Below the pieces are notes generated by a model. That model was not told the DNA's origin. It searched no databases and saw only the letters and a program-made list of their open reading frames with translations. From positions 1 through 64,000 of the forward strand of contig JAFSPU010000003.1 of the NCBI GenBank assembly GCA_017451265.1: 64,000 bases of DNA, in the 5' to 3' direction. Of the stretch, positions 15,028 to 33,081 are shown one piece after another. Numbering within the stretch: position 1 is the stretch's first letter; each line of letters opens with the position of its first letter. Made by a program: the position numbers and the translations under genes. The DNA is from Clostridiales bacterium. Its GTDB lineage: Bacteria > Bacillota > Clostridia > Saccharofermentanales > Saccharofermentanaceae.

Positions 15028-15104
15028 TGGTGGATGATACAGGACTCGAACCTGTGACCCCCTGCACGTCAAGCAGGTACTCTAGCCAGCTGAGCTAATC
15101 ATCC
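15028..15104 (-). tRNA. tRNA-Val (anticodon GAC)
   Basis: A 77-base cloverleaf with acceptor GGATGAT/ATCATCC, anticodon stem CCTGC/GCAGG and loop TTGACGT, which gives anticodon GAC. The T arm is ACAGGTTCGAGTCCTGT, and the 3' CCA is encoded. Confidence 0.93.
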
Positions 15105-15115
15105 TCAGCCCGAAG

Positions 15116-15171: not shown

Positions 15172-15229
15172 TTTACATATACCCCCAGTAGGTATATGAT
15201 AAGCATAAACAGATACCCCCACAGGGTAT
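15172..15229 (+). promoter_or_regulatory. Copper operon promoter with two CsoR operators
   Basis: TTTACA (15172-15177) and TATGAT (15195-15200) are spaced by 17 bases. A dyad ATATACC-N7-GGTATAT at 15177-15197 fills the spacer. A second dyad, ATACCC-N5-GGGTAT at 15213-15229, lies just past the predicted start site. Both resemble known C-tract CsoR operators. Apo-CsoR would block polymerase at both, and Cu(I) would release it. Confidence 0.8.
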
Positions 15230-15247: not shown

Positions 15248-15553
15248 ATGGCTAAAGACAACACCTGTCCCCACTGCAACCATAAAGACAGAACTGATGA
15301 TGAGGTAAAAGATCTCATCACCCGCCTTAACAGGATAGAAGGTCAGATCCGCGGCATACATAAGATGGTAGATGAAGGCGCTTATTGCGTTGACATCCTG
15401 ACACAGGTAAATGCGGCCAGATGCTCGCTCAACTCCTTTTCTAAGGTACTCCTCGGAAGCCACATCAAGTCATGCGTTAAAGAAGACGTAATGAACGGTT
15501 CCGAAGAGAAGATCGATGAGCTCGTTGAGCTTTTACAGAAGATGATGAAGTAA
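15248..15553 (+). CDS. csoR: CsoR-type copper-sensing repressor
   Basis: This 101-residue all-helical DUF156 protein represses copper resistance genes and is released by Cu(I). It keeps the CsoR metal ligands: Cys in GAYCVDIL, and His and Cys in GSHIKSC. The RcnR/FrmR-type N-terminal His ligand pattern is not evident. An unusual N-terminal extension, CPHCNHKD, adds two Cys and two His and could be a second metal site. GAGGT upstream sets the start. copA begins one base after its stop, so the two are coupled. Confidence 0.92.
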   Translation: MAKDNTCPHCNHKDRTDDEVKDLITRLNRIEGQIRGIHKMVDEGAYCVDILTQVNAARCSLNSFSKVLLGSHIKSCVKEDVMNGSEEKIDELVELLQKMMK

Positions 15554-15554
15554 T

Positions 15555-18038
15555 ATGGCAAAGTACGATGTAACAGGAATGAGCTGTGCCGCATGCCAGG
15601 CACATGTCGAGAAAGCCGTTAACGGCGTTCCCGGGGTTGAATCCTGCGCTGTTTCCCTTCTCACCAACTCCATGACGGTAGAAGGCAGCGCTTCTCCCGA
15701 CAGCATTATCAAAGCCGTCGAGGATGCAGGTTACGGCGCATCGCTGACGGGTGCCGTTAACACGCCTAAGAAAGATTCGCTCGATAACAAAGAACTGCCT
15801 GTACTTAAGAAGAGACTTATAAGTTCCGTGATTATTCTTCTGATTCTCATGTACTTCTCGATGGGCGTACATATGTGGGGCTGGCCCTCACCCGCCTTCA
15901 TTGGGCATAACATGGTTGCATCCGGGATCTTCCAGATGCTGCTTTCAGGCATCGTAATGGTTATCAACCAGAAGTTTTTTATAAGCGGATCCAAGGCTGT
16001 CATGCACGGCGCACCTAACATGGATACTCTGGTGGCTATGGGATCCGGCGTATCCTTCCTATACAGCGTTTATCAACTGATCAATATGAGCAATTCAGCA
16101 AGTCATACTGATATGCCTGCGCTTTACTTCGAATCAGCCGCGATGATCGTCACTCTCATCACCATAGGCAAGCTTCTAGAATCCATATCCAAAGGCCGCA
16201 CTACTAATGCGCTTAAATCACTTATGGATCTTGCCCCGCAGAGCGCAACAGTTATACGTAATGATAAAGAAGTGACCGTACCTGTTGAAGAGGTCGCCGC
16301 AGGAGATGTATTCATCGTTAAGCCCGGTGATAAGATCCCTGTCGACGGCGTTGTTATCGAAGGATTAAGTGCAATAAACGAAGCTGCACTTACAGGAGAA
16401 TCCGTTCCTGTTGATAAGGAGCCGGGCGACAAAGTATCAGCCGCAACGGTTAATCAATCAGGTTTCCTAAAATGCAAAGCTACCCGCGTAGGCGAAGATA
16501 CAACTTTATCCCAGATCATTAAGATGGTCAGCGATTCGGCAGCAACCAAAGCCCCTATTGCAAGGACCGCTGATAAAATATCGGGGATATTCGTTCCCGT
16601 TGTACTGTTAATCGCAGCTGTTGTAACTGTGATCTGGCTGGTCATTGGACAAGACTTAAGTTTTTCCCTCACCAGAGGCATTGCGGTGCTTGTCGTAAGC
16701 TGTCCCTGTGCATTAGGACTTGCCACACCTGTTGCGATAATGGCAGGAAACGGACTCGGCGCCAAGAACGGTATTCTTTTCAAGACTTCAGAAGCTTTAG
16801 AGCAAACCGGCAGAACATCAATAGTTGCTTTGGATAAGACAGGGACTATCACCAAAGGCGAGCCTTCGGTTACTGACGTCTTCACCGCTTCGGGAATCGA
16901 TAAGGATGAATTGATCAGAATCGCAGCAAGTCTGGAGAGCAAGTCCGAGCACCCGCTCGCCAAAGCCGTTGTCGCCTGTTCTGATGACAGATACGAGTGC
17001 ACTGATTTTACTGCCGTCCCCGGCAATGGGCTTACAGGCACAGTAAGAGGCAAAAAAACATTCGGCGGAAACAAAGAATATATAACAAAGCTTGTAACAG
17101 TTCCCGATGAGGCGATATCAGAATCAGTCAGACTTTCCGGCGAAGGCAAGACTCCCCTCTTCTTCGCTTGTGACGGTAAATTCATCGGAATAATTGCAGT
17201 TGCCGACACGATCAAGGAAGAAGCTTCCAAAGCGATCAGAGAGCTTCATAACATGGGAATCAAAACAGTTATGCTTACCGGCGATAATGAGAGAACAGCG
17301 AATGCAATCGCTGCCAAAGCCGGAGTAGATAAGGTTATCGCAGGAGTGCTGCCGGACGGCAAAGATAAAGTAATCAGAGAACTTCAAAAGTACGGTAAAG
17401 TCGCGATGGTCGGTGACGGCATCAACGACGCGCCTGCCCTTACCAGCGCTGACATCGGCATTGCGATAGGAGCAGGAACAGACGTTGCAATAGACGCAGC
17501 CGATGTAGTACTCGTTAAGTCCAAGCTCACAGACGTACCTGCAGCGATCAGGCTTTCCAGAAGAACCGTTACGATAATCCATGAGAATCTGTTCTGGGCA
17601 TTTATCTATAACATTCTTCTCATACCAGTAGCTTCCGGCGCACTCTACAGTCTGGGTATAATAATGAAACCAGTCCTCGGTGCCGCAGCCATGAGCATTT
17701 CGAGTTTTACCGTGTGCATGAACGCACTGAGGATCAACCTTTTCGACGTGTCTTCTTCAAGGCACGACAAACGCTTAAGCAAGCCCGCGGAGCTTCCGCA
17801 GGAAATAACAGGAGGTATCAGAAAAATGGCAACAAAAACAATCAATATCGAGGGCATGATGTGCAAGCATTGCGAGAAGGCAGTAAGAAACGCTCTTATG
17901 GCCATCCCCGGTGTAATTACCGCTGAGGCTTCACACGAGGCCGGCAACGCAGTGATCGAGATCGACGGCGATGTTACCGACGAGATCATCACAAAGACTA
18001 TTACGGAACTGGATTATCAGGTAACCGGAATTAACTGA
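15555..18038 (+). CDS. copA: Copper-exporting P1B-type ATPase with N- and C-terminal HMA domains
   Basis: This 827-residue ATP-driven Cu(I) exporter sits in the cytoplasmic membrane. Its order is: N-terminal HMA domain with GMSCAAC (Cys11, Cys14); two to four helices; actuator TGES; the transport helix with Cys383-Pro-Cys385; phosphorylation site DKTGT (Asp427); TGDN; hinge GDGINDAP; and the last membrane pair. A second HMA domain follows at residues 758-827, with GMMCKHC (Cys770, Cys773). A C-terminal HMA is uncommon for CopA. A perfect AGGAGGT and an in-frame ATG lie right at its border, see the nested copZ entry. It is controlled with csoR, and its stop directly abuts the stop of the convergent gene. 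Confidence 0.95.
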   Translation: MAKYDVTGMSCAACQAHVEKAVNGVPGVESCAVSLLTNSMTVEGSASPDSIIKAVEDAGYGASLTGAVNTPKKDSLDNKELPVLKKRLISSVIILLILMYFSMGVHMWGWPSPAFIGHNMVASGIFQMLLSGIVMVINQKFFISGSKAVMHGAPNMDTLVAMGSGVSFLYSVYQLINMSNSASHTDMPALYFESAAMIVTLITIGKLLESISKGRTTNALKSLMDLAPQSATVIRNDKEVTVPVEEVAAGDVFIVKPGDKIPVDGVVIEGLSAINEAALTGESVPVDKEPGDKVSAATVNQSGFLKCKATRVGEDTTLSQIIKMVSDSAATKAPIARTADKISGIFVPVVLLIAAVVTVIWLVIGQDLSFSLTRGIAVLVVSCPCALGLATPVAIMAGNGLGAKNGILFKTSEALEQTGRTSIVALDKTGTITKGEPSVTDVFTASGIDKDELIRIAASLESKSEHPLAKAVVACSDDRYECTDFTAVPGNGLTGTVRGKKTFGGNKEYITKLVTVPDEAISESVRLSGEGKTPLFFACDGKFIGIIAVADTIKEEASKAIRELHNMGIKTVMLTGDNERTANAIAAKAGVDKVIAGVLPDGKDKVIRELQKYGKVAMVGDGINDAPALTSADIGIAIGAGTDVAIDAADVVLVKSKLTDVPAAIRLSRRTVTIIHENLFWAFIYNILLIPVASGALYSLGIIMKPVLGAAAMSISSFTVCMNALRINLFDVSSSRHDKRLSKPAELPQEITGGIRKMATKTINIEGMMCKHCEKAVRNALMAIPGVITAEASHEAGNAVIEIDGDVTDEIITKTITELDYQVTGIN
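17826..18038 (+). CDS. copZ: Nested copper chaperone CopZ (internal start inside copA)
   Basis: Seen in the sequence: within copA, in the same frame, AGGAGGT at 17810-17816 lies nine bases before ATG at 17826. That ATG opens exactly at the first residue of an HMA domain. Translation from here yields a 70-residue protein starting MATKTINIEGMMCKHCEKAV, which has the size and motif of a free CopZ Cu(I) chaperone. Known: E. coli makes a CopZ-like product from copA by ribosomal frameshifting, and many Firmicutes have separate copA and copZ. Inferred: internal initiation makes free CopZ in addition to the fused domain. The alternative is a recent copA-copZ fusion with a leftover ribosome site. Confidence 0.7.
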   Translation: MATKTINIEGMMCKHCEKAVRNALMAIPGVITAEASHEAGNAVIEIDGDVTDEIITKTITELDYQVTGIN

Positions 18039-20912
18039 TCACTTAGGGATCTCGATAACCATATACTCGCCTGCCTGAAGGACAAGACGCAGTCCCAGGC
18101 GGTCGAGATCTCTTTCCATGAGCAAGTCACCGTGTGACGAGTATCTTCTGTAAGAACCGTCAGCGGTATTATAAGCGTCACTGAGCACTACAAACTGCTG
18201 CAGCTCGTCCGAATGGTTGGCAATAACAATACATATACTTTCAGGCTTATCTATAAGAAGAGTCTCGCAGGCCGCGTCAAAGTCCTCTGCAGTGAACCTT
18301 GAAGTCTGATCGAGCGGAGCCATAGTCTCACAGAACATGGTATCGCCGCCGATGATGGGCCTGAGCGTAGCAATAAGCCTGCAGGACTGCATATCGGAAT
18401 CGATCATGATGAGGTCAGCATACATATTCTCAGCTCTTATGATAGCCGATACGATGTCAGCACAGTCATAAGCCCCCTGCTCCACACTGTCGCCTATCCT
18501 TACGGTAGAAACAAACTCACCGCCTCCTGAGCCACCGTTACGGTTACGGGGAGCGTTGTAGATCATATTATCGATAGCGGTATAAACCGAATCGACGAAC
18601 GAAAGCTCACCCTCTTCACCCTGCACGATATCAAGCACTACTCCTGAAGCGTGCCTGTCTGCATCAGACAGCATAATGCCGCCCTCATATGTCATGCCGT
18701 CGATAAAGACGATCCTGTCCTTAATCTCGATATAGAACTCAGACTTGGCAAAAAGGCTCATTACATAGGACACATAAGCACCGCGCTGGGAATCAGTCAG
18801 GAACGTGCCGTCCAGATCGCTTATCTCAACATAGATCGTATCGAACTGCCTGCTCCAGGGAAGCGCCGTGCCGTTATCTATCCTTCGCTTACCGTAAGCG
18901 TCTGAAACTGAACCGCACAGGTAACCCAGGAACTCGTTGACATCTGTCTGGGATACAGAAGATCCCATAACGATCCAGGGGTTGGCCCCGGAATTCTTAC
19001 TTAAAAGAAGCTCGCGCTCAAGAGAGAATGCGCTTATGCCGTAATATGTCTCCTCACAGAAACCGTCGCTTCCCGGAACGGTGGAACTGAACCTTAATGC
19101 AGACGGCGCACAGGCAGTCATCTCATCAGCAAAGTCAGTGGGAACAGAATTGATATCATAGCGGTCGAGGCCGAGGTATGCGTTGAAGATATTAATAACA
19201 GCATCACCCTCGAAAGATATATTAAAGCGCAATGTCTCATCAGTAAGCATTGTATCCGTTACCGCAAACACATACGAATAAGATCTCGGCAGCGAATCAA
19301 TATCAGTAACGTAAAGTCCCTGCTCACCGAACGTCTCACCGTTAAGCCAGATATAGCATTCGGCGCCTTCTGTATCGGAAGAAAGTGAGACTTCGATACG
19401 GTAGAAAAGATTATTCTCGAAAAGCTCAGCTGAAGTTCCGTCAAGCTCCACGGACATAGCATGTACACCGCTTCCCGTTCCTACGAGGCTGACGCCCTGA
19501 GACTGCGATATCAGGTGAGTATCTCCATAAAGATCCCAGACTTCGGAATCAAACCTGGAATGCTCGATGATACATGTATCACCCGCCATTACGACACCGT
19601 CAGCTACAGGTACATCTACGAGAACCGCTGACTTAAGCGATGATTCATAAAGCGTATTGCCGCTTCTTATAAGATATCTGTCAGAACCGTAATTCATAAT
19701 GTAGTCTACTGAGATACCGGTGAGTCCCAAGGACCTAGGCGTGCCGGTCTCGATGGGGACATAATAAGCCTGACTGTCTGAAGTTACTGCAATAACGGCG
19801 TCATCGCCGGAAGCACAGATACTCACAGGTTCGATAGATGAAATATCGCAGGAAGTAAGCTCCGGGGCATCCCCTTCCATTCCGATCCTTACAAGTCTTC
19901 CATAAGACGTAAGGACATATGCCTCGTTAATGCCGCCCTCCATATCAGCGATAGTCTCGCCCTCGCGCATATATTCGGCAAACTCATCAAGGTGCGCAAA
20001 GAACAGACCGTTATGGCTTACATAAATATCATTGCCGGAGGAATATGCCATGTACCCCTGTCCGGACACAGTAAACTCCGCCTGCGCATCAGCAACTTCG
20101 GTACATCCGGAAGCTGTCAGAGAAACAGCAGAACCGTCAGATAAGAAAACAACGATATTACCGTTAGCTGAAGCAATACGGTTAACGCTGACACCTTCAG
20201 AAATGCCGCAGGAACCAAACAAAGAGAAAGGACCTGAATCAGTAGATACATATATCTCTCCCACAGAAGTAACTGCATAGACTGACAATCCTTCTGAACA
20301 GATATCAATTACAGGCATTTCTATTCCGCTTAATTCGGGATAAACAGCAGCATCCGTGATCAAACTGCCGCTTGCCGTAAGAAGATAAAGATAACCGGAA
20401 TACTCCGCTGTCTTAATAACAGGATCATTTATCCACAGAGCTGACGAATCCTCAAGAGCAACCGGTACACCGAATACAGTCTCGGTAAAACCGACGGCAG
20501 TACCGGAATAACGAAGGCCCATCTTACCATTTGCGTCTATGGCAAGTATCTCCACATTATCTCCGAAAGACAATTCAGAGAAAGACGATGTAACTGAAGG
20601 ATCAAAATAAATACTGTTACCGCTTACCTCGGTTATCTGAGCGGACAGATTATCACTGAACTTTCCGAAGAAAGGATTCTCAATAAGATTCGCATCCGGA
20701 ACATCAACGACGTTGATTCCGACTCCTTCTGTATGCTTGGAAGTAAGTTCAGCTGATGCCCTGATTCTGGGAAGCTCCGCGCGGCTTCCGAAGAAACCGA
20801 TAAACATAAGAAAGAGCATTGAAGTAAGCAATATCAGCGTAATCAGAACGATTACGAGGAATATCCTTCTTTTATGAAGATTTCCGAATCTGAAGCGTGC
20901 GAGTCTGTTCAT
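18039..20912 (-). CDS. Large membrane-anchored extracytoplasmic protein of unknown function
   Basis: This 957-residue protein has a basic N-terminus and one strong helix (about residues 16-42), so nearly all of it lies outside the cell. Residues 100-450 show repeated strand units (GYLYLLTASGSL, GEIYVSTDSG, NDIYVSHNGLF, GNTLYESSL), consistent with a beta-propeller. Residues about 450-590 look like a jelly-roll or carbohydrate-binding sandwich. Residues 620-957 are alpha/beta, ending in a short beta domain (LRLVLQAGEYMVIEIPK). The last part reminds me of arabinofuranosidase-type glycosidases, but I find no catalytic pair I would defend. The stop abuts copA, and the start overlaps the upstream CPBP gene by four bases. 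A surface glycan or wall role is a guess. Confidence 0.65.
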   Translation of the reverse strand: MNRLARFRFGNLHKRRIFLVIVLITLILLTSMLFLMFIGFFGSRAELPRIRASAELTSKHTEGVGINVVDVPDANLIENPFFGKFSDNLSAQITEVSGNSIYFDPSVTSSFSELSFGDNVEILAIDANGKMGLRYSGTAVGFTETVFGVPVALEDSSALWINDPVIKTAEYSGYLYLLTASGSLITDAAVYPELSGIEMPVIDICSEGLSVYAVTSVGEIYVSTDSGPFSLFGSCGISEGVSVNRIASANGNIVVFLSDGSAVSLTASGCTEVADAQAEFTVSGQGYMAYSSGNDIYVSHNGLFFAHLDEFAEYMREGETIADMEGGINEAYVLTSYGRLVRIGMEGDAPELTSCDISSIEPVSICASGDDAVIAVTSDSQAYYVPIETGTPRSLGLTGISVDYIMNYGSDRYLIRSGNTLYESSLKSAVLVDVPVADGVVMAGDTCIIEHSRFDSEVWDLYGDTHLISQSQGVSLVGTGSGVHAMSVELDGTSAELFENNLFYRIEVSLSSDTEGAECYIWLNGETFGEQGLYVTDIDSLPRSYSYVFAVTDTMLTDETLRFNISFEGDAVINIFNAYLGLDRYDINSVPTDFADEMTACAPSALRFSSTVPGSDGFCEETYYGISAFSLERELLLSKNSGANPWIVMGSSVSQTDVNEFLGYLCGSVSDAYGKRRIDNGTALPWSRQFDTIYVEISDLDGTFLTDSQRGAYVSYVMSLFAKSEFYIEIKDRIVFIDGMTYEGGIMLSDADRHASGVVLDIVQGEEGELSFVDSVYTAIDNMIYNAPRNRNGGSGGGEFVSTVRIGDSVEQGAYDCADIVSAIIRAENMYADLIMIDSDMQSCRLIATLRPIIGGDTMFCETMAPLDQTSRFTAEDFDAACETLLIDKPESICIVIANHSDELQQFVVLSDAYNTADGSYRRYSSHGDLLMERDLDRLGLRLVLQAGEYMVIEIPK

Positions 20913-30318: not shown

Positions 30319-33081
30319 TTATTTTTCTTTACTTACGGCACCCTTTACTGCCTTAAACACTTCACTTACCGTAAAAGGAACCAGCGAGAGCGGGATGATA
30401 ACGAGCCAGGACTTGAGGCTTAAGGCAACATTATCGAAGATTCCGTTAACGCCGGGGATATAGATCACGGCAAGAAGCATAACAAGTGACAGTCCTACAG
30501 CGGTATTCATAAGCTTATTGGAGAACAAGCCAAGCTTAAATACCGACATTCTCTCTGATCTGGATGCATAAGCTCTGAGAAGCTCAGCCAGGATAAGTGT
30601 GGCAAAAGCCACTGTTCTGGCACCTGTAAGAGCCTCGATATCAGAGGAGAAGAAGAAACCGTTGTTATGTGTAAGCGGAATCAGGAATGCAGCGGCTACG
30701 CAGGCAAAGATCGCTGTGGCCTGAACAAAGATCTGAACCAGCATGCTCTTATTGATGATGGGTTCCCCCTTAGGTCTGGGCGGCATCTTCATTATTCCGG
30801 GTTCCCCCTTCTCTCGTCCGAGAGCCAGGGCCGGGAACGAGTCAGTTACGAGATTAAGCCACAAAAGCTGGATAGCCGTAAGAGGAGCTGCGATACCGGG
30901 GATCACCGTATTCGGGATCAAAGACAGCAGGAAGATAACAAGGATCTCACCTACATTACATGACAGCAGGAAGCTTACGAACTTTCTGATGTTCGAATAG
31001 ATGATTCTTCCCTCTTCTACAGCCTTAACGATGGTGGCGAAGTTATCGTCCATCAGGATCATATCTGCGGAGTTCTTGGCAACGTCAGTACCTGTGATAC
31101 CCATGGCAACACCGATATCGGCTGACTTCAGAGCCATGGCATCGTTAACGCCGTCACCTGTCATGGATGCAATGTGATCATTCTTCTTAAGTGCAGTTAC
31201 GATACGAACCTTATGCTCAGGGGATACTCTGGCATAAACGTTAGTATTCTCACATGCTGTGAGAAGCTCCTCATCGGAGATCTTATCAAGTTCAGCTCCT
31301 GACAGAGCCTGTGAGTTCTCATCCATCATCTCAAGGTTATTGGCGATGGCTACGGCAGAATCCTTATAGTCACCGGTGATCATAACAGTTCTGATGCCGG
31401 CTTCCTTACATACTGCAATAGCGTCCTTAGCTTCCTTACGCTCAGGATCGATCATTCCGATAAGACCTACAAAGATGAGATCCTTCTCGTGCTCGAACTC
31501 AGCTGTAGTTCCCTTATTGTGAACTCTGTAAGCAAAAGCAAGAACACGGATAGCCTGACATGCGAAGTCATGGTTCTGCTTAGTGATCCTCTTCCTTATC
31601 TCGTCCGTCATAGGTACGGGACCGTTTTCACTCTCGTAGTAAGCGCATCTGGAGATAACGATATCAGGACCGCCCTTGGTATAGGAAACAAGCTTTCCTT
31701 CCTCGATACCTGTGTGATAGGTAGTCATCATCTTTCTGTCAGAGTCGAACGGGAGCTCAGTGATTCTGGGATATTTGTCCATCGTCTTCACGCGCTCCAT
31801 GCCGGTCTTCATACCGAGAGTCGTAAGTGATCCCTCAGTAGGGTCTCCGATACATGTATATTCACCGGACTCGTTCTTAACGATATTTGCATCATTACAA
31901 AGAACTGCAGCCCTGATCAAAGTCTCAAGCTTACCATCAGGCTTAACCTCTGCATCCTTATCATCACGCAGCTTGCCCTCAGGAGCGTAACCATTGCCGT
32001 CTACATTAACGATCTTCTCGCCGTCGTAGAGGACCTTAACTGTCATCTGATTCTGCGTAAGTGTACCTGTCTTATCAGAGCAGATTACATCGACGCATCC
32101 GAGTGTCTCTACAGCCAGAAGACGCTTTACGATGGCATTGTTCTGAGCCATCTTAGTCATACCGATCGAAAGTACGATGGTTACTACTGCAGCCAGGCCC
32201 TCAGGGATAGCAGCAACAGCCAGAGAAACAGCTGTCATCAAAGCCTCGGATACAGGCTCTTTCTGAACGAAGATATCAACAACAAAAACGATGATACATA
32301 CGATGATACATACAACAGCAAGGATCTTACCCAGGTGATTAAGATTCTTCTGCAAAGGAGTAACCTCATCTTCCATGGTAGAGAGCTTGTTGGCGATCTT
32401 ACCGAGCTCTGTATTCTTTCCCGTTCCGACTACTACACCCGTTGCTCTTCCGTAAGTTACGGAAGTACCCATAAACAGCATATTCTTACGGTCACCAAGG
32501 GAGCAGTCATCTCCTAAGATCAGGTCTGCAGCCTTATCAACCGCAACAGACTCACCTGTCAGGGAAGCCTCCTCGGCCTTAAGTGAATTGGAAGACAGAA
32601 GTCTGATATCTGCTGATATTGCATCACCGGCATCGATAGAGATAAGGTCTCCTTCTACTACGTTCTCAGAGTCAACCATTACGACCTCGCCGTCTCTTAC
32701 GACCTTGGTCTGGGGAGAGCTCATCTTTTTAAGGGCTGCGAGAGCCTGATCAGCTTTACCTTCCTGGTATACACCGAGAATGGCATTAAGGATTACGATG
32801 GCAAGAATTACAAATACATCGATCCAGCCCTCGAGGCCCTCATTATTCTTAACTGCCATAAAAGCTGACAGGATAGCTGCCGCTATCAGGATAATTACCA
32901 TCGCATCAGCGAACTGCGCGAGGAATCTTTTCCACAATGGTACTTTCTTCTCTTCACCGAGTGTATTGGGACCGTTCTTAATAAGTCTGTCCTCAGCCTC
33001 TTTTTTAGTGAGGCCTACAGCTGCATCCGTATTAAGTTCTCTTACTACTTCTTCGGTACTTTTCGAAAACGCTTTATCCAA
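30319..33081 (-). CDS. Cation-transporting P-type ATPase (Ca2+, PMCA-like)
   Basis: This 920-residue P2-type ATPase exports cations, most likely Ca2+, across the cytoplasmic membrane. It has an N-terminal cation-ATPase domain, actuator TGES near 175 and helix 4 with VAAIPEGLAAVV. The PEGL motif is the Ca2+ site. DKTGTLTQ follows near 335, then MITGDYKDSA and GDGVNDAMALKSADIG, and helix 6 has LLWLNLVTDSFPALALG. The single-site pattern (N-x-x-x-D in helix 6) is present. It stands alone and is divergent from the phosphodiester glycosidase gene. Confidence 0.92.
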   Translation of the reverse strand: MDKAFSKSTEEVVRELNTDAAVGLTKKEAEDRLIKNGPNTLGEEKKVPLWKRFLAQFADAMVIILIAAAILSAFMAVKNNEGLEGWIDVFVILAIVILNAILGVYQEGKADQALAALKKMSSPQTKVVRDGEVVMVDSENVVEGDLISIDAGDAISADIRLLSSNSLKAEEASLTGESVAVDKAADLILGDDCSLGDRKNMLFMGTSVTYGRATGVVVGTGKNTELGKIANKLSTMEDEVTPLQKNLNHLGKILAVVCIIVCIIVFVVDIFVQKEPVSEALMTAVSLAVAAIPEGLAAVVTIVLSIGMTKMAQNNAIVKRLLAVETLGCVDVICSDKTGTLTQNQMTVKVLYDGEKIVNVDGNGYAPEGKLRDDKDAEVKPDGKLETLIRAAVLCNDANIVKNESGEYTCIGDPTEGSLTTLGMKTGMERVKTMDKYPRITELPFDSDRKMMTTYHTGIEEGKLVSYTKGGPDIVISRCAYYESENGPVPMTDEIRKRITKQNHDFACQAIRVLAFAYRVHNKGTTAEFEHEKDLIFVGLIGMIDPERKEAKDAIAVCKEAGIRTVMITGDYKDSAVAIANNLEMMDENSQALSGAELDKISDEELLTACENTNVYARVSPEHKVRIVTALKKNDHIASMTGDGVNDAMALKSADIGVAMGITGTDVAKNSADMILMDDNFATIVKAVEEGRIIYSNIRKFVSFLLSCNVGEILVIFLLSLIPNTVIPGIAAPLTAIQLLWLNLVTDSFPALALGREKGEPGIMKMPPRPKGEPIINKSMLVQIFVQATAIFACVAAAFLIPLTHNNGFFFSSDIEALTGARTVAFATLILAELLRAYASRSERMSVFKLGLFSNKLMNTAVGLSLVMLLAVIYIPGVNGIFDNVALSLKSWLVIIPLSLVPFTVSEVFKAVKGAVSKEK

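Follow-up and report, generated by a model that had tools for sequence, protein, structure and literature searches.

In Bacillota such as Bacillus subtilis and Enterococcus, the copper pump and its chaperone are encoded in separate copA-copZ operons. In E. coli, CopA(Z) is reportedly made by programmed -1 frameshifting, as Meydan and Drees are both said to have described in 2017. The product of E. coli copA obtained by -1 frameshifting, a 70-residue putative copper chaperone, is described in two reports (PMC5009743, PMC9548414). Because the frameshift stop comes early, the E. coli product is the N-terminal domain of CopA. In another pathway, a third report (PMC11899642), which also cites bacterial cases, describes Cas11 as arising from in-frame initiation inside cas8/cas10.

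The window analyzed here, a stretch of 64,000 nucleotides, contains a copper operon in which copA would yield the same two proteins, in the same order, as the separate copA-copZ operons; there a stop lies between the genes, whereas here there is none and the pump carries the chaperone domain. As with E. coli CopA(Z), one copA gene is predicted to give a full pump and a separate 70-residue chaperone-like protein, but E. coli uses the 5' part of copA and a -1 frameshift, and the present gene would use its C-terminal HMA domain, in the zero frame, with a Shine-Dalgarno (SD) sequence and start codon of its own. The original prediction had called this a different route from the E. coli frameshift; that stood for the mechanism, but the domain differs as well, being C-terminal here and at the start of copA there. 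Like Cas11, the product would be a small subunit from the 3' part of a larger gene, translated from a Met inside that gene with an SD possibly ahead of it; unlike Cas11, it belongs to a protein type known to occur on its own, and some relatives still carry the two genes split. The copA-copZ case would join the outcome of E. coli CopA(Z) with the mechanism of Cas11. Among the matches listed from the open-access PMC literature, none described a copZ start inside copA. Our main reading, to which we give a probability of roughly 0.9, is that copA and copZ are fused here and that copZ retains a translation start of its own; the pump would carry a tethered chaperone, and a free CopZ is predicted as well.

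The copper operon and the frame nested in copA

The features of the operon are as follows.

15180..15195, + strand: inverted-repeat operator-like site TACCCCCAGTAGGTAT, upstream of csoR, exact match to the searched pattern
15214..15229, + strand: second operator-like site TACCCCCACAGGGTAT, upstream of csoR, exact match to the searched pattern
15248..15553, + strand: csoR-like metal-sensing repressor gene (Trns_repr_metal), first gene of the operon
15555..18038, + strand: copA, copper-exporting P1B ATPase of 827 aa, with an HMA domain at each end
15564..15734, + strand: N-terminal HMA domain, GMSCAAC, CopA-type
17810..17816, + strand: internal SD AGGAGGT, overlapping linker codons Thr-Gly-Gly
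17826..17828, + strand: internal in-frame ATG, codon 758 of copA, proposed copZ start
17826..18038, + strand: nested copZ, predicted to encode a 70-residue CopZ-like HMA protein
17853..17873, + strand: metal-binding motif GMMCKHC

The copA translation passed TIGR01511 (582.5 bits, cut-off 397) and contained the CPC motif (CPCALG), and Pfam found two HMA stretches in the whole protein. The operator-like sites at 15180-15195 and 15214-15229 follow a CsoR-type consensus, and the presence of two such repeats upstream of csoR suggests copper induction. The csoR stop and the copA start were one base apart (TAA T ATG, 15551-15557), which together with the near-absent SD of copA suggests translational coupling.

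The original prediction placed AGGAGGT nine bases before an in-frame ATG that opens the C-terminal HMA domain, and the site and its spacing are as described: AGGAGGT at 17810-17816, nine bases (17817-17825), then the ATG at 17826-17828. The distance from the ATG at 15555 to the internal ATG is 2271 nt, or 757 codons, so the two are in frame as claimed, and the nested frame ends at the stop 18036-18038 to give a product of 70 residues. The GMMCKHC motif was likewise encoded where it had been reported (17853-17873), and in the modelled fold the first strand of the HMA domain runs from residue 2, agreeing with the claim that the ATG opens the domain. SD energies were computed as pairing with an assumed sequence of the 16S anti-SD tail. 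The internal site (-11.7 kcal/mol) was the best of the copper operon (csoR, -7.3), and copA's own start, described earlier as having no SD, gave a computed pairing of -1.7 kcal/mol. In relatives, too, the internal SD was mostly the stronger: of the 103 genes compared, 97 had a weaker SD at even the best candidate for the copA start.

The bare pattern AGGAGG-N(4-10)-ATG occurred 10 times in the 64-kb window against an expected 4.0 ± 2.1. This mild enrichment makes conservation the real test, and with 10 occurrences in the window the pattern alone was rejected as evidence against chance; it is the domain boundary together with conservation that raises the site above chance. An internal promoter with a separate short mRNA was set aside, as a search limited to the sigma-70 type gave no match in 17500-18140, where only 0.8 would be expected by chance in any case.

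Around the operon, a tRNA-like sequence was seen by eye just upstream of csoR (15030-15105, - strand). A 957-aa open reading frame (18039-20912, - strand) is convergent with copA, the two stop codons being directly adjacent, and had no Pfam match. A second, more distant P-type ATPase lies at 30967-32811 (- strand) in a 930-aa open frame, with a weak CopA match (27-41% identity in pieces).

Conservation of the proposed internal start

A copA match (E <= 1e-150) was found in 101 of the 115 genomes of the window's family and in 149/188 genomes of the order, family included. These genomes mostly look like metagenome assemblies, and the window's own assembly is 69.5% complete. The order set comprised 140 loci (L001, L006-L034, L038-L147). 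Genes were counted as fused (110) where the C-terminal HMA motif stood in a frame uncut by a contig end; the other 30 lacked the motif in such a frame or were cut (L010, L127).

In 106/110 fused genes of the order (all except L057, L067, L085 and L145) an ATG lies no more than 18 residues ahead of the C-terminal HMA motif. The site Met was defined as the Met with the best SD within those 18 residues, of which there was one in 79 genes, two in 24 and three in 3; this is a mild bias absent from single control Mets. Resampling of the order set took the same best-Met maximum, and resampling of the 78 representatives described below did not. Mean SD energy was -9.1 kcal/mol at the site and -2.3 at 2675 other in-gene Mets. 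An SD of <= -6 was found at 101/106 site Mets vs. 8.1% of controls, and of <= -8 at 94/106 (88.7%) vs. 1.2%. In 91 of the 106 genes no other Met matched the SD of the site Met, and in the remainder one to five did. In the window's clade the first Gly codon of the linker was GGA in 7/7 loci (L001, L006-L009, L011, L012); GGA makes up 29-51% of Gly codons in these genes, giving a product of 0.0007, the genes not being independent.

Beyond the order, a C-terminal-region profile matched 192/391 class genomes (E <= 1e-20), a match alone not proving fusion. The class-wide sample of 110 loci, drawn from this profile search and from the scan of named organisms described below, gave 92 parsed, distinct fused junctions (16 unparsed, 2 repeats), with an ATG in 87, an SD <= -6 in 82 and <= -8 in 79. 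Eight of the 92 repeat the order set; the 84 new ones include 79 with ATG and 74 with SD <= -6. In the union of 193 distinct fused junctions, 184 had the in-frame ATG, 174 an SD <= -6 and 165 an SD <= -8 kcal/mol. The ATG was absent in 9/193. In L296 it is replaced by GTG behind AGGAGG, and L196, L210, L214 and L222 are fused junctions without a start codon. The SD is therefore conserved in close relatives, where the original prediction had proposed to look for it, and its conservation extends class-wide.

Named organisms were scanned as the best 80 matches to the fused-gene alignment, which favors query-like genes. By title these loci were mostly Clostridia, with a few labelled Spirochaetales, Sphaerochaetaceae, Synergistaceae or Erysipelotrichaceae. 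Named carriers of the start include Schaedlerella arabinosiphila (L218), Mogibacterium pumilum (L208), Hornefia butyriciproducens (L193) and Ruminococcus albus (L239, now Hominimerdicola alba), the SD reading CAGGAGG in L218 and AAGGAGG in L239; the lineages of three named carriers were checked and all were Clostridia.

Split relatives, selection on the site and rival explanations

Five relatives, all in one family of the order (f4), have a separate copZ directly after copA (L109, L111, L118, L121, L131). The gap between the genes is 20 nt in L118 and 59-85 nt in L109, L111 and L121. By eye, the SD of the split copZ is AGGAGG-type in L109 and L131 (GAGGAGG), AAGGAG in L118, and weak in L111 and L121. 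In view of these relatives, the fused gene is plausibly a pair that lost the stop and kept the copZ start. A tree of 220 copA cores, mixing four families of the order with the class-wide sample, contained 176 genes with the start, 8 with a weak one, 7 without, 5 split and 24 without fusion (of the last, tips L010 and L127 are contig ends; L196 was left out, and L296, on account of its GTG, was scored manually as having the start). With a midpoint root, start losses were scattered over the tree. Parsimony on the same root nested the split state inside the fused, which would instead mean that fused genes were split; the change may have run in either direction.

The existence of split neighbors makes it plausible that the internal SD and ATG began as copZ's own start, and they could be a relic of the copA-copZ fusion that is no longer used. 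Loss of the ATG in a few lineages agrees with this. Drift should erode a neutral relic, but the start was retained in 176/191 fused genes of the tree, and the SD is carried by differing peptides and codon phases: T-GG or S-GG in the window's clade, elsewhere KE, GE/GD, EE/ED or EKR, and among the order's 106 genes GG occurs in every codon phase (62/27/17). Synonymous and folding signals in diverged representatives also stand against a relic. In 78 genes of <70% identity, SD energy was -9.6 as observed vs. -6.4 on synonymous resampling (Wilcoxon 3.6e-14), whereas 1807 control Mets gave -2.68 observed vs. -2.64 resampled. In the same representatives the mRNA around the start was less folded than resampled sequences (-5.2 vs. 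-7.0, P = 2e-9); 234 control Mets had no such depletion of structure (-16.3 vs. -15.2 resampled). Because the 78 representatives share ancestry, these P values are not strictly independent. We consider a disused relic very unlikely.

An SD-like stretch could also slow translation where the last membrane helix gives way to the C-terminal domain, as an aid to folding or insertion, with no initiation at all. SD-like pausing has been proposed, and the position of the site at a domain boundary would suit it. Pausing requires no ATG at a set distance and no weakly structured mRNA, however, and at this site the ATG is present in 106/110 genes, the SD-ATG spacing is 7-9 nt in 88/106, structure is depleted, and in L296 it is GTG that stands for ATG. 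A sliding profile had a single sharp SD peak at -9 to -15 (-8.9 observed vs. about -5.5 resampled); further upstream values were about -1 to -2.7, and past the ATG a weaker stretch (about -4) lay below its own resampled value. A pause alone is more improbable still.

Codon choice at the site was compared with that of identical dipeptides in the remainder of these genes. Lys-Glu was in SD form in 73/84 cases at the site vs. 123/604 elsewhere (28/37 vs. 46/234 in representatives), Glu-Glu in 60/66 vs. 244/627, and Gly-Gly in 11/11 vs. 64/383; overall, codon choice differed strongly for KE, EE, GG, GE and GD. The test for Lys-Gly was non-significant in representatives (6/6 vs. 182/236, P = 0.22). 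Taken gene by gene, synonymous resampling reached P < 0.05 in only 19/106 order genes and 8/78 representatives; single-gene tests are mostly non-significant because the linker residues (KE, GG, EE) already favor SD-like codons. The selection and length tests used 193 items (106 + 87 genes with ATG, some repeats), a count separate from the 193 distinct junctions and equal to it by chance. On these sequence comparisons, the SD is conserved beyond the needs of the protein. That protein structure is what preserves a charged Lys/Glu/Gly linker and a Met at the head of the domain, with the SD-like sequence a by-product, is hardly credible. The amino acids by themselves do account for much of the SD strength (in representatives the resampled mean is -6.4), and P values for single genes are modest. 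But the codons used at the site are strongly unlike those of KE, EE, GG, GE and GD elsewhere, and peptides with no relation to one another arrive at a single nucleotide motif with a single spacing.

The predicted product, its proposed role and other HMA proteins

Pfam placed an HMA domain at residues 5-61 of the 70-residue product (48.3 bits, cut-off 24.8). Product length was 69-71 residues in 166/193 items, and the G, first M and both C of the motif were invariant in 18 aligned sequences. The modelled product had a complete beta-alpha-beta-beta-alpha-beta fold (pLDDT 91.8), with its first strand beginning at residue 2. Foldseek matches included CopZ 6ff2 (TM 0.88) and the metallochaperone 2qif (TM 0.90); the first match was 4a48, a PacS pump domain, so the fold cannot separate a chaperone from a pump domain.

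The affinity of the C-terminal domain to CopZ, as judged from sequence scores, was mixed. Against B. subtilis proteins, the C-terminal domain scored higher with CopZ (1k0v, 35.1 bits) than with CopA (2rml, 25.3), and the reverse held for the N-terminal domain (22.6 vs. 62.7 bits). The N-terminal domain scored higher than the C-terminal one with 2roe (47.2 vs. 35.3) and with E. hirae CopZ 1cpz (26.7 vs. 23.3), and the top matches of the C-terminal domain were human-type copper ATPases. In a domain tree the N-terminal domains formed one clade (34/34 representatives, support 0.825), outside which lay four split CopZ, nearest each other and the C-terminal domains. The product fell below the NCBIfam CopZ cut-offs (NF047957, 56.3 against 85 bits; NF033795, 48.3 against 91; NF033794, 43.4 against 95) and is therefore labelled 'CopZ-like', outside those families.

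For the fused gene with its own copZ start, we infer use of the start by ribosomes, a product ratio, copper delivery and copper regulation of the following kind. Ribosomes would enter copA through its weak start behind the csoR stop and make the exporter with a C-terminal tethered CopZ-like domain. Independent initiation at the internal AGGAGGT/ATG of the same mRNA would give the free 70-residue CopZ as a carrier of Cu(I) to the pump. Under the control of CsoR, pump and chaperone would both be induced by copper. Given the strong internal SD and the weak copA start, more chaperone than pump is expected. It is quite probable that across much of the class Clostridia copA has long encoded two products, with selection maintaining both the fusion and the internal start and the ratio being set by the two SD strengths, and that this solution is independent of that of E. 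coli.

Annotation pipelines are expected to call one protein at such genes and would thus overlook a free CopZ in many Clostridia of gut and rumen, which would then seem to be without a copper chaperone. If used, the start would be a second, unrelated way of getting pump and chaperone from one gene, and would suggest that free and tethered chaperone are both useful. The locus also shows how a fused gene can retain its downstream partner's start across long divergence.

Other CopZ candidates were sought in the same genomes. In the window's own assembly (69.5% complete) three HMAs were found at E <= 0.01, two of them in copA and one in an LDCANC protein. Across 35 related genomes there were 65 HMA places outside long copA-type frames, two of which are the separate copZ of split pairs (G169, G170). 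A GMxCxHC-type motif was found in 0/60 standalone HMA places read, of the 63 not adjoining a split copA (three were left out: G062:C37:51738, G008:C7:86720 and G060:C20:43871). The existence of a separate CopZ anyway was set aside, as no GMxCxHC CopZ was seen in the own assembly or at these 60 places. In four genomes whose fused gene has no start (G064, G065, G036, G157), no separate GMxCxHC CopZ was seen either; free CopZ would be dispensable there or made otherwise.

The standalone HMA places were mainly of the LDCxxC, GMMCxMC and GMxCxNC types, three of the GMxCxNC type having a hydrophobic N-terminus. In the window's own genome an ArsR-type regulator, a 78-aa LEDLDCANC HMA protein and a Zn/Cd-type P-type ATPase were seen by eye in a row (L037, C5:373350-376514), apparently a Zn/Cd system with its own small HMA protein. 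A standalone GMMC-x-MC HMA protein of about 70 aa from its Met (M-KTT-KIDGMMCGMCEAH...) recurs in many genomes of the window's genus (L181, L182, L185, L301-L303, L305, L308-L314, L316) and is distinct from both the CopA C-terminal domain and the LDCANC type. Further standalone HMA proteins with GM-C-NC or GM-C-AC were found whole at L172, L183 and L186 and partial at L300, L304, L306, L307 and L315; three of these GM-C-NC/GM-C-AC proteins have an N-terminal hydrophobic stretch and a CCG motif.
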